Source: Methyloversatilis discipulorum | GTDB taxonomy: Bacteria; Pseudomonadota; Gammaproteobacteria; Burkholderiales; Rhodocyclaceae | Reading direction: 5' to 3' | Assembly (NCBI RefSeq): GCF_000527135.1 | Contig: NZ_AZUP01000001.1 | Coordinates: forward strand, 2,542,001 to 2,606,000 | DNA: 64,000 nt | Shown: positions 273-48,264 of the stretch, in pieces | How positions within the stretch are numbered: position 1 is the first letter of the stretch | Layout: each line of letters starts with the position of its first letter | Notes under the pieces: model-generated | Told to the model about the DNA's origin: nothing | Databases searched by the model: none | The model's input: the letters and a program-made list of their open reading frames with translations, nothing else | Program-made: the position numbers and the translations under genes

Positions 273-2366
273 ATGGCCGTCGTTTCCGCACTGTTCAGCT
301 GCAGCGCCATGGACATGCCATGCACGCAGCACGTTTCCTTCCCTGATGCCTTCAGCGTCGCCGTCGGCGACGCGCCGCAGGCTGCAACGACGGCATTGCT
401 CAGGCTTTCCCACGATGGCCGGATCATCGACCACACCGGCTGGCCCGACACCCTGACCGAAGTCCGTGGGCAGCCGGTGCACCGTGTGTTCCGCGAACTC
501 GACAACGACGGCCAGTCGGGCTGGCCGACCTTCCGGGCGGGTTGCGGCAACGCGGTGAGCCGGCAGATCTGGCATCTGCATGAAGGAGGTCGTCCGGTCT
601 GTGTCGAGTGCGCCCCGCTGCCCGGCGACGCGAGCGGTCACTGGCTGCTGCGCGTCAGCCACGGCACGCCCGAGGACGCCGTGCAGCGCGAGCTGCGCCT
701 GCTGGCGCGCGCGGCGCACCAGGCCGGCGATGCGGTCATGATCACCTGTGCCGGCGGCCTGATCGAGTACGTGAACCCCGCCTTCGAACGCAGCACCGGC
801 TACACCGCCGAAGAGGTACTGGGTCGCTCGCCCGGTCTGTTGAAGTCGGGCGTGCACGGGCCGGACGTCTATGCTCGGCTGTGGCGCACGCTGCGCAGCG
901 GCGAGGTGTTCCGCATGGTGTTCACCAACCGGCGCAAGAGCGGCGAGCTCTATCACGAAGAGAAGACGATCAGCCCGATCCGCGACGCGCAGCAGAAGAT
1001 CAGCCATTACGTCGCCACCTCGCGCGACGTCAGCGAGCGCATCCGCGCACAGGACCAGCTGGAGTATCTGGCCGGCATGGACGTGCTGACCGACCTGCCC
1101 AACCGCCGGCTGTTCACCGACCGTCTGCGCCAGGCCATGCGCCGCGCCATGCGCACCGAGTGCCCGCTGGCCGTGCTGTTCATCGACCTCGACCGCTTCA
1201 AGGTGATCAACGACACGCTGGGCCACAGCGTCGGCGACGCATTGCTGACCGAGGTGGCGGCACGGCTGCGCGGCTGCGTGCGCGCCTCCGACACGGTGGC
1301 GCGACTGGGCGGCGACGAGTTCACCGTGCTGCTGGAAGAGACCGGCGACCGCGCCGCCGTCACCGAGATCGCCGAGAAAATACTGGCGGCCCTTGCCGAC
1401 GGCGTGCGCGTGCAGGGGCGCGAATTCTTCGTCAGCGCCAGCGTCGGCATCGCGCTCTACCCGGAGAACGGCCACTCGGTCGACGAACTGCTCAGCCGGG
1501 CCGACCTGTCGATGTACCGCGCCAAGGCTGCCGGCCGCAACACGCTGCGCTTCTACGACCAGAGCATGGACGCGCACGCGCACACAGAACTGTCGGCGGA
1601 GATCGCGCTGCACGGCGCGCTCGAACGGCGTGAGTTCTTTCTCGTCTATCAACCCATCATCGACACCCGCACCGGCCGCGTGGCAACGGTGGAGGCGCTG
1701 TTGCGCTGGAACAGCCCGACCGAGGGCGTGGTGCCGCCGGACCGCTTCATTCCGCTGCTGGAGGAAACCGGACTCATCGTGCCGGTCAGCCGCTGGTCGC
1801 TGCGCGAAGCACTGCGCGATCTGCGTATGCTGCAGGCGACACAGCCGCAGGTGCACCTGGCCTTCAACCTGTCGGGCAGACAACTGCGCGACGACGACCT
1901 GGTCAGCGACATCGCCGGCGCGCTGCAGGAAGCCGGCGTCGACCCACGCATGCTGGAACTGGAAATCACCGAAAGCACGCTGATGGAGGACATCCCGCGC
2001 ACCACCGACATTCTCGGTGCGCTGGACACGATGGGTATCAGCCTCGCCATCGACGACTTCGGCACCGGCTACTCGTCGCTCGCTTACCTGATGCGCTTCG
2101 CCGTGCGCACGCTGAAGATCGATCGCAGCTTCGTCAGCCAGCTGCGCAGCAGTTCCGACGCCGTAACCATCGTGCGCGCCATCACCTCGCTGGCCGACAG
2201 CATGGGACTGGAAATCGTCGCGGAAGGTGTGGAAACGCCGGGGCAGCTGGCGCAGCTGACCGAGCTCGGCTGCCACCGCCTGCAGGGCTATCTGTTCAGC
2301 CGACCGGTGCGCCCGGAAGAGCTGCTGTGCCTGAGCTGTTTCAACCCGGCCACCCCGCAGACCTGA
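273..2366 (+). CDS. PAS-GGDEF-EAL cyclic-di-GMP signalling protein
   Basis: Predicted cytoplasmic enzyme that makes and/or degrades cyclic di-GMP. It has 697 residues and no membrane segments. An N-terminal region (about 40-125) may be a divergent PAS domain. A clear PAS with its PAC follows at about 140-255 (NPAFERSTGYTAEEVLG), then a GGDEF domain at about 265-430 with intact GGDEF near residue 346. The inhibitory I-site RxxD (RASD) lies five residues before GGDEF. The C-terminal EAL domain (about 445-690) has EALLRW and DDFGTGYSS, so both catalytic halves look competent. ATG codons at 273, 309 and 315 are all possible starts; the first is used here. The signal sensed by the PAS domains cannot be told from sequence. 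The gene ends just before the tail of the oppositely oriented candidate small RNA. Confidence 0.93.
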   Translation: MAVVSALFSCSAMDMPCTQHVSFPDAFSVAVGDAPQAATTALLRLSHDGRIIDHTGWPDTLTEVRGQPVHRVFRELDNDGQSGWPTFRAGCGNAVSRQIWHLHEGGRPVCVECAPLPGDASGHWLLRVSHGTPEDAVQRELRLLARAAHQAGDAVMITCAGGLIEYVNPAFERSTGYTAEEVLGRSPGLLKSGVHGPDVYARLWRTLRSGEVFRMVFTNRRKSGELYHEEKTISPIRDAQQKISHYVATSRDVSERIRAQDQLEYLAGMDVLTDLPNRRLFTDRLRQAMRRAMRTECPLAVLFIDLDRFKVINDTLGHSVGDALLTEVAARLRGCVRASDTVARLGGDEFTVLLEETGDRAAVTEIAEKILAALADGVRVQGREFFVSASVGIALYPENGHSVDELLSRADLSMYRAKAAGRNTLRFYDQSMDAHAHTELSAEIALHGALERREFFLVYQPIIDTRTGRVATVEALLRWNSPTEGVVPPDRFIPLLEETGLIVPVSRWSLREALRDLRMLQATQPQVHLAFNLSGRQLRDDDLVSDIAGALQEAGVDPRMLELEITESTLMEDIPRTTDILGALDTMGISLAIDDFGTGYSSLAYLMRFAVRTLKIDRSFVSQLRSSSDAVTIVRAITSLADSMGLEIVAEGVETPGQLAQLTELGCHRLQGYLFSRPVRPEELLCLSCFNPATPQT

Positions 2367-2377
2367 GCGCAGACCTG

Positions 2378-2428
2378 AAAAAAGAAACCGGCAGGTGCTG
2401 ACCAGGAGGAGCTGGCTGCACGTGCCGG
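2378..2428 (-). terminator. Intrinsic terminator of the candidate small RNA
   Basis: On the minus strand a 41-nt hairpin has outer arms CCGGCA/TGCCGG, an inner GTGC/GCAC helix and a CCAG/CTGG helix. It is followed directly by TTTCTTTTTT. It lies only 11 bp beyond the stop codon of the convergent EAL gene and has no U-tract on the plus strand. Confidence 0.85.
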
Positions 2429-2549
2429 TGAAGGTGAGGAGAGTTGGTGGTCCCGACGCTCACGCCGGGACCTGCGCATCCGGCAGGAATGCACCCCGCA
2501 TTCCCGCTTGCTCCGCCTGAGTGCGTCATTCAACGATTCAGGCAGGGCA
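2378..2549 (-). ncRNA. Candidate small RNA of the methylamine regulon, four hairpins and a terminator
   Basis: The minus strand carries the same promoter architecture as the tmm, dmm and porin units (see 2555-2613). About 7 nt after its -10 element a compact structured stretch begins and no plausible gene follows. Read on the minus strand it has four successive hairpins. H1 (2543-2515) has 6-bp arms GCCTGA/TCAGGC. H2 (2504-2486) has 7-bp arms GGAATGC/GCATTCC. H3 (2472-2449) has a 10-bp stem closed by UGAG. H4 (2428-2388) is a terminator hairpin with arms CCGGCA/TGCCGG followed by TTTCTTTTTT. CU-rich stretches lie in the linker before H4 and in the H4 loop (CUCCUCCU); both could pair with Shine-Dalgarno sequences. 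Start and length are predictions. A leaderless peptide cannot be excluded, but the short frames here look random. Confidence 0.6.
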
Positions 2550-2554
2550 GAGCG

Positions 2555-2613
2555 ATTATCTGCAAGCGCCATCGGCCGGACAATTCTCAAGAGGGAGTAA
2601 GCCATTCTGGGTA
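2555..2613 (-). promoter_or_regulatory. Methylamine-regulon promoter, site A (drives the small RNA)
   Basis: Read on the minus strand: a degenerate 16-bp palindrome TACCCAGAATGGCTTA (2613-2598), 14 bp including CCCTCTTGAGAA, then TTGTCC (2583-2578), a 17-bp spacer and GATAAT (2560-2555). The spacing equals that of the other three sites. The palindrome is the weakest of the four, while the CCCTCTTGAGAATTGT block is fully conserved. It sits between the permease terminator and the candidate small RNA. Confidence 0.72.
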
Positions 2614-2645
2614 GGCGCGCGCCGACGGCGCCGAGGCCGCGACGC

Positions 2646-2693
2646 CAAAAGAAAACCGGCACCGACAACTCCCGCAGGAGTGGCCGATGCCGG
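2646..2693 (-). terminator. Terminator of the porin-permease unit
   Basis: On the minus strand, 56 bp after the permease stop, outer arms CCGGCA/TGCCGG enclose an inner ACTCC/GGAGT helix and are followed by TTTTCTTTT. Its outer arms and tail closely resemble those of the small-RNA terminator about 270 bp further on. Confidence 0.88.
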
Positions 2694-2748
2694 CAAGTGC
2701 GGACATCGTTCCGCGGCCGTCACGCGAGCGCGCGACGGCTCTGCTGCA

Positions 2749-4449
2749 TCAATACACCGCCATGTTGTGCGCGATGATCACCACCGCGACGCCAGCAGCC
2801 AGCGTGATGTAGGGCAGGACGCCAGCACGCTTGCCGCCCTCCGCCAGCTGGTCGTTCAGGTGCATGTCCTCCAGCATCGCGTCCGGGAACTTGCCCTTGT
2901 CCTGCACGTAGTGGCGGTACAGGAAGACCGGGATGATCAGCGACGCGAACACCAGACCGGCGGTCAGCGTACCGGCGCCGTAGATGTCTGCACCGAGGCC
3001 CATCAGCGCGAGGTTGACGAAGCCGAGCACGACGCCGATGGCGAGAATGATCTTCGGCGCCTTGAACGGACGCTCCCAGTCCGGACGGTCGATGCGATGG
3101 ATCCAGCCGGAATTCAGGTTCAGGAAGTTGAACATGATGTAGCCGACGTTGGAGCAGGCCAGTACGAACACGTAGTCCGACATCAGCAGCAGGATCAGGT
3201 TGAAGCCCAGATCCGTCCACATCGCGCGGGTCGGCGCGCCATGCTCATTGACGTGCGACAGGTAGCGCGGAAGCCAGCCATCGACCGAAGCCTGGTACAG
3301 CGTGCGCGACGAGCCTGCCATCGAGGTCATGATGGACAGCAGCACCGCCAGCACCAGCATGACGACCAGCACATTGGCCACCACTTCGCCGCCGCCGACC
3401 ATGTGCGACATCACGTTGGCCACGCCCATGCCGCTGTAGACATCGGGTGCCAGCATGCCGCTGTAGACCGCCGGCGAGCTGACCGTTCCGTCCGCTTCGA
3501 CCACCGGCGGCGTCACCACCTCACCCAGGCCGAGATGGCCTTGGAAGGCGAGCGGCACCAGCGTGAACACGACGATGCACAGCAGACCCGAGTAGAAGAT
3601 GGCCTTGAAGGTGTCCTTCTTCGGATCCTTGAACTCGCGCGTGTAGCAGACCGCGGTCTCGAAACCGTAGGTCGACCACGCCGCGATGAACAGGCCGCCT
3701 GCCATCAGCGTGACGCCCGCCATGTTCCAGGTGCCATCGACCACCAGACCGTTCTCGTAGGCGATGGGCACCATCGGCGAGAAGTGGGTCGACGGCATGT
3801 CGCCGGACAGCAGCGGCACCAGCGCGATCAGCATCAGCGGAATCAGCGCCGTGACGCCGAGCACCATGGTCGTGCGAGCCGAGCGCAGGATGCCGCCGTG
3901 CTGGATGCCGAACACCGCCAGCAGCAGCACGACGCCGACCAGGAAGGTCGCGTTGATGCGCAGTTCGAGCCCGGACTTGATGAAGCTCAGGTCGAGCAGC
4001 GTCAGCTGCCAGGTGTTGATCGCCGCATCGGCCGGGAACAGCGCACCGAGGATGTAGCCGGCCGCCAGACCGGAACCGATGGCGAGCACCGGCGACCAGG
4101 CGAACCAGTTACACCACACCGACACCGGCGCGATGATCTTGCTGTAACGCACCCAGGCGACCGCGCCATACACCGAAGCGCCACCCGACTTGTGCGGGAA
4201 CAGGCCGGCGATTTCGGCATAGGTGAAGGCCTGTATGAAGCCGAAGCCGATCGACAGCGCCCACACCATCCACGACGGCTTGCCGACCGTGGCGGCGATG
4301 GCGCCGATGGAAAACAGCACCAGCGCAGGTACGCCGCTGGCCACCCAGAACGCACCGGTCCAGTCGATCTTCCGGTGCAGTGAAGCATTTTCGGCGCGGC
4401 TGGCCGACCGTACCGGCGCCGCTCCGATCACATCCGCATTGCTGCTCAT
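2749..4449 (-). CDS. APC-superfamily permease of the methylamine cluster
   Basis: A 566-residue inner-membrane permease of the amino acid-polyamine-organocation superfamily. The N-terminal 30 residues are polar. About 12-14 hydrophobic segments follow, starting with the GAFWVASGVPALVLFSIGA helix, and the family-like stretch EIAGLFPHKSGGASVYGA occurs near residues 100-115. The start is ATG with GGGGGA about 6 nt upstream. It lies 51 bp downstream of the porin gene, probably in the same transcript, with a 12-bp hairpin between them. Substrate is not shown by sequence. From the neighbours (tmm, tdm, dmm) I infer uptake of trimethylamine, its N-oxide or another methylated amine. No TMAO ABC transporter genes are present in the window. 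Confidence 0.85.
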   Translation of the reverse strand: MSSNADVIGAAPVRSASRAENASLHRKIDWTGAFWVASGVPALVLFSIGAIAATVGKPSWMVWALSIGFGFIQAFTYAEIAGLFPHKSGGASVYGAVAWVRYSKIIAPVSVWCNWFAWSPVLAIGSGLAAGYILGALFPADAAINTWQLTLLDLSFIKSGLELRINATFLVGVVLLLAVFGIQHGGILRSARTTMVLGVTALIPLMLIALVPLLSGDMPSTHFSPMVPIAYENGLVVDGTWNMAGVTLMAGGLFIAAWSTYGFETAVCYTREFKDPKKDTFKAIFYSGLLCIVVFTLVPLAFQGHLGLGEVVTPPVVEADGTVSSPAVYSGMLAPDVYSGMGVANVMSHMVGGGEVVANVLVVMLVLAVLLSIMTSMAGSSRTLYQASVDGWLPRYLSHVNEHGAPTRAMWTDLGFNLILLLMSDYVFVLACSNVGYIMFNFLNLNSGWIHRIDRPDWERPFKAPKIILAIGVVLGFVNLALMGLGADIYGAGTLTAGLVFASLIIPVFLYRHYVQDKGKFPDAMLEDMHLNDQLAEGGKRAGVLPYITLAAGVAVVIIAHNMAVY

Positions 4450-5686: not shown

Positions 5687-5795
5687 TCGAGGAGCTAGGG
5701 ACTAGGGATCAGGGGCTAGGGAACAGGTGTGGCTGCGCCACACGAGGTCAGGGCGCGGCCCTCTAGCCCCCAGCCCCTAACCCCTGGCCCCTGCT
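5687..5795. repeat. Imperfect inverted CTAGGG-type repeat between divergent promoters
   Basis: The left arm has tandem CTAGGGA units (around 5693-5727). The right arm (around 5761-5791) is a degenerate inverted copy rich in AGCCCC and ACCCCTGG. The centre holds a hairpin GTGTGGC-tgc-GCCACAC (about 5727-5743). The whole lies between the two divergent regulon promoters (sites B and C). It could form a large cruciform or be a decayed intergenic repeat; no coding potential is seen. Confidence 0.55.
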
Positions 5796-5854
5796 TACTC
5801 CTTAAGAGGTAATCCCTCTTGAGAATTGTGGGCATTGATCCGCCTTCGCATCAT
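5796..5854 (+). promoter_or_regulatory. Methylamine-regulon promoter, site C (tmm-tdm)
   Basis: Palindrome TACTCCTTAAGAGGTA (5796-5811), 14 bp with CCCTCTTGAGAA, TTGTGG (5826-5831), a 17-bp spacer and CATCAT (5849-5854). The predicted start near 5861 gives a leader of about 100 nt before tmm. The 7-2-7 layout of inverted TAC-type heptamers resembles sites of NarL/FixJ-type regulators (known for that family); the actual regulator is not in the window. Confidence 0.75.
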
Positions 5855-11576: not shown

Positions 11577-12173
11577 ATGAGCACCCCAGCCATCAAAAGC
11601 CAGCCGGTTTACGCAGAGCTCGAATGGGATCGCGCCGGTACGCATCACATCCTGTTCGTTGCCGCCGAGGACGCCGCTCTGGCGCAGCGCCTGCTCTCCA
11701 ACCCGCCCGCCGGCACCATCACGCTGATCCACCTGGGCAGCACGTCGGCCGAGACGCGCAGCTGCTGGTCGCAGGGTCTGCCCGACAGCGCGCTCTATCT
11801 CGAAACGCACTCGCTGGCCGAGGCGCTGGAAGTGCTGCGTGACGCGCTCTACGTCGCGCAGATGGGCACGCGCATCTATCTCGCCGGCCCCGAGGACGCG
11901 GTGTGGCAGGCGTCGCGCGTGGCCGACGGCTTCGGCGTCGGACGCGACGAAGTTCGCTACGCACAACTGGGCAGCAAGGCACGCCCGGTGTTCTGCGTGC
12001 ATTGCCGCACCATCACGCGCGGCGTGCACACCAACATCGTTTCATGCAGCGGCTGCGGACGATCGCTGTTCGTGCGCGACCACTTCTCGCGCCGGCTGGG
12101 AGCCTACATGGGCTTCCAGATCGACGCCGAAGTGCCGGGCGAGGTCCCCGCTGCGGAGGTGGTCTACCCATGA
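11577..12173 (+). CDS. dmmA: Dimethylamine monooxygenase subunit DmmA
   Basis: A 198-residue protein matching the DmmA family in position and in its C-terminal cysteine pairs, FCVHC near residue 142 and SCSGCG near 158, which form a probable zinc or metal knuckle. A conserved-looking RRLGAYMGFQ follows. The N-terminal two thirds resemble a Rossmann-like domain (HHILFVAAEDAAL, IYLAGPEDAVW), so it may help electron transfer or assembly. Start ATG at 11577; the preceding 70 bp hold no clear Shine-Dalgarno. The stop overlaps the dmmB start by ATGA, indicating translational coupling. The function inside the complex is not known from sequence. Confidence 0.88.
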   Translation: MSTPAIKSQPVYAELEWDRAGTHHILFVAAEDAALAQRLLSNPPAGTITLIHLGSTSAETRSCWSQGLPDSALYLETHSLAEALEVLRDALYVAQMGTRIYLAGPEDAVWQASRVADGFGVGRDEVRYAQLGSKARPVFCVHCRTITRGVHTNIVSCSGCGRSLFVRDHFSRRLGAYMGFQIDAEVPGEVPAAEVVYP

Positions 12174-16932: not shown

Positions 16933-17378
16933 CGCACGTCCTCCACCTGATCCAGATAGTCGCCGTAACCCTCGGCCACCATGTCGTCGCGATGCACGAA
17001 GCGTAGCGACGCCGAGTTGATGCAGTAACGCAGCCCGCCGCGGTCGCGCGGGCCGTCCGGGAAGACGTGGCCAAGATGGCTGTCGCCGTGCGCCGAGCGC
17101 ACTTCGGTGCGGATCATGCCGAGCGAGGCATCGCGCAACTCGGTCACGTGCGCCGGCTCGATCGGCTTGGTGAAGCTCGGCCAGCCGCAGCCGGACTCGA
17201 ACTTGTCGCTCGACGCGAACAGCGGCTCGCCGGACACGATGTCGACGTAGATGCCCGGTTCGTGGTTGTGCAGGTATTCGCCGGTGCCCGGGTATTCGGT
17301 GCCGTTCTGCTGCGTAACCCGGTACTGCTCAGGCGTGAGGCGAGCGATCGCCTCGGGTGATTTCGTATAGGTCTTCAT
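16929..17378 (-). CDS. msrB: Peptide-methionine (R)-S-oxide reductase
   Basis: Repairs R-epimers of methionine sulfoxide. It has 149 residues, with GCGWPSF near residue 67, [13 protein letters not shown] near 96 and the catalytic Cys in [11 protein letters not shown] near 120. The CxxC zinc pairs of the metal-bound MsrB form are absent, so this is the zinc-free type. The start is ATG with AGGAGG 4 nt upstream. First gene of the msrB-msrA pair. The msr pair lies with no visible link to the methylamine genes. Confidence 0.95.
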
Positions 17379-48077: not shown

Positions 48078-48264
48078 TAGGGGACCCCCGCGCATGTCGC
48101 TAGGCCGGCATCCTGAACCGAGGGTTCAGAGCGGCCGCGTCCCTGCCGCATCAGGCGCATCCCCGAGAGGTGCGCACAACAGCGGCGTCCATGGTTCGCG
48201 ACCTTATGCCAATGAGACATTGGTTCAAGGAATCTATGACCTTGGCGAACACCGCAGGGGATTG
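48078..48264 (-). ncRNA. ssrS: 6S RNA
   Basis: On the minus strand, 35 bp after zapA, is a sequence of about 187 nt with the 6S layout. The 5' strand begins near TCAATCCCCTGCGG and contains TTCCTTGAACCAATG. The 3' strand has CTGAACCCTCGGTTCAG followed by GATGCCGGCC and ends with GCGGGGGTCCCC, which can close against the 5' CCCCTGCG. The downstream position next to zapA is the usual site of ssrS in beta- and gammaproteobacteria. 6S RNA binds RNA polymerase carrying the housekeeping sigma factor. Ends are approximate. Confidence 0.8.

Follow-up and report, generated by a model that had tools for sequence, protein, structure and literature searches.

Within the window, by which we mean the whole 64,000-nt stretch of Methyloversatilis discipulorum DNA analysed here (from genome G000, 4,306,529 bases), a gene-less unit on the minus strand lies between a trimethylamine N-oxide (TMAO) permease gene and a converging PAS-GGDEF-EAL gene. 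Its parts and neighbours, in window coordinates unless marked otherwise, are as follows.

273-2366 (+): converging PAS-GGDEF-EAL gene, stop at 2366 (domains from a profile scan)
2378..2548 (-): putative small RNA transcript, ~171 nt, its start inferred from the -10 element
2378..2443 (-): conserved 66-nt module, linker plus terminator (covariance models R1 and R2)
2378..2386 (-): most of the U tract (UUUCUUUUUU), for termination; from its sequence a likely Hfq site
2387..2429 (-): terminator hairpin with covarying stem of 7+4+5 bp and CUCCUC hexaloop, followed by UUUCUUUUUU
2406..2411 (-): CUCCUC hexaloop (seed 2), within GCUCCUCCUG, kept in 10/10 copies
2431..2443 (-): CU-rich linker CUCUCCUCACCUU (seed 1), from sequence and unpaired probabilities
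2449..2472 (-): hairpin 3, 10 bp, directly 5' of the linker
2483..2507 (-): hairpin 2, 10 bp
2509..2549 (-): hairpin 1, 8 bp and short extensions, in a region without conservation in M. universalis
2555..2583 (-): hexamers TTGTCC and GATAAT, resembling -35 and -10, with a 17-nt spacer (hexamer scan)
2581..2599 (-): regulon operator TACTCCCTCTTGAGAATTG, site A, 0 mismatches
2646..2706, about (-): the permease's own terminator
2749..4449 (-): TMAO permease gene (NF053774, 864 bits, cut-off 690)
G000 genome 2668036-2668100: second copy of the module, flanked by a short gene (by eye) and a TorF-family porin (TIGR02001, 160.6)
G000 genome 3362348-3362366 (-): fifth and only distant operator, preceding a UspA-like gene (locus L138; gene type by eye)

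The gene-less unit and its operator

Along the minus strand, the end of the permease gene at 2749 is followed by the permease terminator, site A and the gene-less unit, which ends at 2378 and so does not overlap the converging gene. The initial annotation had placed this unit under regulon promoter site A, as a distinct transcript of about 170 nt set off by the terminator of the permease. These points hold: the operator is intact and one of five sites in the genome, the distance from the predicted start to the end (2548 to 2378) is ~171 nt, and a terminator is recognized by eye, together with a weak R1 match (17.5 bits), at the expected place. The latter may be a decayed copy of the module that has lost its seeds. 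As in anti-Shine-Dalgarno small RNAs, the unit appears from its sequence to combine an independent promoter and an intrinsic terminator with the absence of a reading frame.

The hexamer-pair scan is by itself at chance level (1 found vs 1.2 expected), and ATAAT recurs at a roughly equal position in G001, G002 and M. universalis EHg5 (G012, locus L026), three of the 13 genus genomes compared. The operator motif TNNTCCCTCTTGAGAATTG has 4 window sites at ≤3 mismatches, against 0.04 expected by shuffling, and 5 sites in the whole genome at ≤2 mismatches, against 0 in the reversed control; the small RNA unit thus shares its operator with the porin/permease, with genes that we take to be tmm and dmm (as we do dmmD below), the site lying ahead of the dmm genes, and with the UspA-like gene. 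In Methylotenera and Zoogloea, too, sequences of the GAGAATTG type stand ahead of the gene that follows the permease (L033, L034, L035; by eye), so that the regulator may be widespread. Elsewhere in the window, a low-complexity inverted repeat (CTAGGGACTAGGGATCAGGGG and a near-complement; by eye) occupies 5690-5800, between the divergent porin and tmm promoters, and a 6S RNA is found at 48081-48263 (-) (RF00013, 50.2 bits).

Predicted fold and the conserved module

The stretch 2550-2378 folds with a predicted energy of -83.4 kcal/mol (z = -4.21), a value that 0 of 200 shuffles equal. Four hairpins, of 6, 7 and 10 bp plus a terminator, had been counted initially; three hairpins and a terminator are indeed present, with stems larger than counted. 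In the predicted fold the CUCCUC loop is fully unpaired (1.00), as are the last seven bases of the CUCUCCUCACCUU linker, UCACCUU (0.97-1.00), and largely its first three (0.72-0.86); the middle UCC is unpaired at just 0.19-0.23, owing to a predicted 3-bp pairing. The earlier proposal that exposed CU-rich stretches could pair with ribosome sites is thus borne out at the level of the model, in that the loop and the 3' half of the linker, which carry the anti-ribosome-site sequence that RF02278 RNAs hold in unpaired regions, are predicted to be open and the middle mostly paired. When the modules are folded alone, the loop is open in 10/10 and the whole linker in 8/10; folded with its preceding hairpin, the G012 module is predicted to have a partly paired linker.

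Full-length homologues with 93% identity over 246 bases occur in G001 and G002. These are the 2 full-length hits of a DNA search that matched 10 of the 13 genus genomes, own genome included; the partial matches in the remaining genomes cover the promoter or the module alone or, in G012, both, apart. Between G000 and G001, 14 of 173 positions differ, 10 of these being paired, and the 55 pairs divide into 47 unchanged, 5 changed on one side, 1 changed on both and 2 broken; in hairpin 3, one pair is switched from C-G to G-C and another is broken. Synteny, which had been asked of relatives, is seen in M. universalis EHg5, where permease, terminator, promoter, body and module follow each other in the same order; there, 29 of 33 promoter columns and 51 of 68 module columns are conserved with respect to G000, and the body, at 54 of 133, is barely above shuffles (27/500 reach its alignment score). 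Among the permeases found, the one of M. discipulorum MAG_31 is nearest (98%).

A covariance model, R1, was built from 7 copies of the module, this one included, and 150 candidates were scored per genome. It gives 93.0 bits to the copy at 2378..2443, itself part of the model, and recovers ten strong hits, at 55.3-94.4 bits, from 5 of the 13 genomes (two each in G000, G001 and G012, one in G002 and three in G006); the three copies not used in building R1 score 55.3-56.6 bits. The other 8 genomes, close relatives among them, have no R1 match above 27.9 bits, and the match with that score falls in a coding-looking stretch (by eye). All ten copies retain CCUCA (linker) and GCUCCUCCUG (loop), with stems that differ; in the 9-row alignment A4, CCUCA and the final U of the linker are invariant. 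In every copy, at least four consecutive T come after the stem on the strand of the module.

The compensatory changes whose absence in relatives was to count against the RNA are present. In alignment A3 (10 rows, 8 distinct; 500 shuffles of the distinct rows), which leans towards structure because it was fitted to the model, 90% of the stem cells are paired and 13 cells are doubly changed (each reached by 0/500 shuffles), 6 pairs carry double changes (21/500), and the further pair types are ordinary (339/500); slid-structure controls leave 31-50% of cells paired. The MAFFT alignment A2 of 7 copies has double changes in 5 of 15 pairs. A conserved seed is thus joined to covarying stems, the combination looked for in anti-Shine-Dalgarno RNAs.

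Four of the ten copies are promoter-bearing and gene-less, and six end permease gene runs, coming after a permease gene or after a short gene that itself follows one (order read by eye). The short gene before the paralogous second copy in G000 lies downstream of an ethanolamine-permease-like gene (TIGR00908, 183.7 bits, below the cut-off of 381.75), in the vicinity of genes for the quinohemoprotein amine dehydrogenase alpha subunit and its maturation (TIGR03908, 727.8; TIGR03906, 799.8; both over cut-off) and of a EutR-like regulator (NF007522, 148.9, below the cut-off of 319). In G006 the module stands close after the stop codon of each of two tandem TMAO permeases (L133), the second being a deep paralogue in the permease tree (NF053774, 827 bits), and, on another contig, close behind a 104-aa gene that follows an ethanolamine-permease-like gene. 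The full module of G006 has the position that is occupied in M. discipulorum by the R1-weak permease terminator. That the RNA always lies near tmm/dmm, as had been asked, is not supported: the family is also found at clusters for ethanolamine-type permeases and quinohemoprotein amine dehydrogenase, and 8 of the 13 genomes are without a strong match. XJ19-49, C4 and MAG-175, which have no module downstream of the permease, fall among the carriers in the permease tree, at forks that are weakly supported; this suggests that they lost it.

Beyond the genus, a pattern search found the module in 5 of 297 family genomes, all Methyloversatilis. Model R2 gave 14 places in 8 of 249 family genomes: the known members account for the 10 strong ones, and the 4 weaker ones (25.3-30.9 bits, 3 genomes) resemble terminators or other GC-rich hairpins, one of them (L152) with AGCTCCTCC in its loop; in the order it gave 4 places in 3 of 349 genomes, namely the two copies of the own genome and two plain terminators without seeds. 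Because both searches used strict filters, with 20 (family) and 14 (order) candidates scored per genome, weak members can be missed. Plasmids yielded no match. As far as searched, the small-RNA family is apparently restricted to the genus.

Candidate targets

The gene proposed initially as an example of a target, dmmD with its AAGGAG site, is not supported: its best duplex has -8.7 kcal/mol, close to the background of the window's 1682 ATGs (-7.0, sd 2.7). More generally, the regulon's own genes pair moderately or poorly with the RNA, and the amine-cluster genes of the window were rejected as targets, with best duplexes of -7.4 to -12.5 kcal/mol at 7 start sites (that at 12116 guessed). The best-pairing start in the window, at 17378 (-) with ACAGGAGGACGCATG (-17.3 kcal/mol), belongs to an msrB-type gene (SelR, PF01641), which the duplex model makes a candidate target; 0.65% of window ATGs reach -15 kcal/mol. 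The only exact AGGAGGAG of the window is the complement of the small RNA itself.

Genome-wide, AGGAGGAG-N2-10-ATG is found 27 times in G000 and 7 times in the reversed control, an excess mainly explained by such sites being Shine-Dalgarno sequences; AAGGTGAGG-N2-10-ATG is found 5 times and once, respectively. From the 27 sites, 24 stretches were read and 23 proteins scanned. The genes include two sodium/substrate symporter small subunits, two PQQ alcohol dehydrogenases, FadL/OmpP1, DUF1302 and DctP proteins, a EutR-like regulator and an SsuA-like binding protein (both below cut-off), a Na+/H+ antiporter subunit, a CoA transferase and a molybdopterin oxidoreductase. Off this theme are two VOC, one CBS, two BNR and one PNPOx protein, a short-chain dehydrogenase and a Crp-type regulator.

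Another string, AAGGAGGAGAGCAAGATG, belongs to a 117-aa gene in the permease cluster of the second copy; it is identical in G012 and similar in G006, and the gene has no Pfam match. Its core with the ATG, AGGAGGAGAGCAAGATG, is also present in G004, a genome without the RNA, so that the targets are candidates only. Long complementary targets were rejected for G000, where full complements are not commoner than in the reversed control (linker 37 vs 46, loop 59 vs 71). G012 has slightly more of them than its control (linker 47 vs 33, loop 63 vs 55), and 10 of its 47 linker complements are the single string ATGGTGAGGAGAA.

Interpretation and relation to known small RNAs

Building on the observed sequence, predicted structure, covariation, paralogy and operator sharing, we consider it likely that the unit specifies an anti-Shine-Dalgarno small RNA that acts in trans, probably in dependence on Hfq, and belongs to a new family restricted to the genus. 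The shared operator suggests that the promoter of the trimethylamine/TMAO regulon would turn the RNA on alongside the genes for amine uptake and oxidation, yielding a primary transcript of ~171 nt that ends at the intrinsic terminator. Its working part would be the 3' 66 nt, in which the CUCUCCUCACCUU linker and the CUCCUC loop both complement strong Shine-Dalgarno sequences; translation would then be blocked by duplexes at ribosome sites, probably formed with the help of Hfq (whose gene is in the genome: TIGR02383, 97.6 bits, cut-off 61.7). Likely targets would be genes with AGGAGGAG-type sites outside the own regulon, such as those for transporters and PQQ alcohol dehydrogenases, and the copies that end permease gene runs would be released by processing.

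That the module is just a conserved efficient terminator, acting also as a roadblock between converging genes and without trans activity, is unlikely: although six of ten copies follow a permease gene or the short gene behind one, and plain terminators reach 38.6 bits with R2, a terminator does not need an invariant loop and linker directly before a changing stem, and four copies have a promoter of their own with no gene. A 3'-UTR element acting in cis on the stability or feedback of the permease mRNA, with the promoter-driven copy as a by-product, would suit the modules just behind the stop codons of permease runs in G006 and in the b copies; given that in two lineages, the M. discipulorum type and M. 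universalis EHg5, the module belongs to a separate unit that comes after a permease terminator and a regulon promoter, we regard it as very unlikely.

CsrA/RsmA-type proteins recognize GGA motifs in hairpin loops, and the reverse complement of the module presents AGGAGGAG and GUGAGGAG in loop-like positions; the opposite strand could thus be the functional one, binding such a protein through CCAGGAGGAGCUGG. This is scarcely credible, since the T runs after the stem and the promoter are on the module's strand. Highly improbable, too, is a small protein: the transcript is spanned by open frames of ~50 codons in G000, G001 and G002, but these extend through the stem of the terminator and the U tract, the G000/G001 differences are mostly amino-acid changing (by eye), and G012 has no counterpart in the same frame. 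A coding function was accordingly rejected, in agreement with the original view that no credible gene lies here.

The trans-acting small RNA would thus belong to what, from its sequence, is apparently a real, uncatalogued family of a known functional kind, tied to amine uptake. A more speculative extension, to which we assign a low probability, is that it sets a hierarchy of substrates: the amine-linked copies (in the trimethylamine regulon and the ethanolamine-type permease run) share their seeds and, during amine use, would shut down the routes by which competing substrates are taken up and oxidized (sodium/substrate symporters, FadL and TRAP transport, PQQ alcohol dehydrogenases), having arisen from a permease 3' UTR that acquired the regulon promoter. 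If active, the RNA would add a post-transcriptional layer to trimethylamine use and offer a clear case, within one genus, of a permease 3'-UTR small RNA becoming a stand-alone, regulon-controlled gene.

Small RNAs derived from 3' UTRs form a general class, which the six copies ending permease gene runs resemble and from which the four with their own promoter differ. At the level of titles and abstract starts, the open-licence papers listed yielded no description of this RNA and no small RNA for methylated-amine catabolism in a methylotrophic betaproteobacterium; no sRNA is mentioned in the available part of PMC13390433. Rfam scans gave nothing at gathering scores for this locus, rows at E ≤10 being weak and unrelated; there was no LhrC row for the region at that threshold, in a library that may be without an LhrC model. 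RF02278 has no row for window 2200-2800 at E ≤10 and, at its gathering score of 50, no match in the window or in L129, L133 and L134, where other copies lie; the 15 rows listed out of 16 for RF02278 in G000 include neither of its two copies. The unit is therefore not filed under RF02278. All 13 genus genomes have an RF02278 match over cut-off elsewhere, and those examined have both CU-rich sites before the terminator. The RF02278/S17-type RNA of the own genome lies at 3426077-3426141 (+) (L145, 67.6 bits), with a second, below cut-off (36.3 bits), at 2219601.

RF02278 comprises, in the available text of PMC5688073, the Betaproteobacteria toxic small RNA or double-hairpin RNAs (NcS27 of Burkholderia and homologues). 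Like the RNA described here, these are short hairpin-plus-terminator RNAs with CU-rich reverse complements of ribosome sites and multiple copies per genome, and the role suggested for them, in uptake and metabolism, is of the kind proposed above. The Listeria LhrC family is likewise multicopy, as far as the accessible portion of PMC4132741 goes; it belongs to an unrelated phylum and is induced by cell-envelope stress rather than by a substrate regulon. Bordetella S17, related to the RF02278 group, is described in the available part of PMC11722255 as a 190-nt primary RNA with a conserved 3' CU-rich site and a terminator, from which RNase E releases a 67-nt form; S17 represses genes, many of them for transporters, by pairing with ribosome sites. 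The present RNA resembles S17 in primary length (~171 vs 190 nt) and in its CU-rich 3' site followed by a terminator; the shared sequence seen is limited to the CU-rich runs, and processing is proposed here. For both LhrC and S17 the anti-Shine-Dalgarno design is reported, in those parts of PMC4132741 and PMC11722255, as working.
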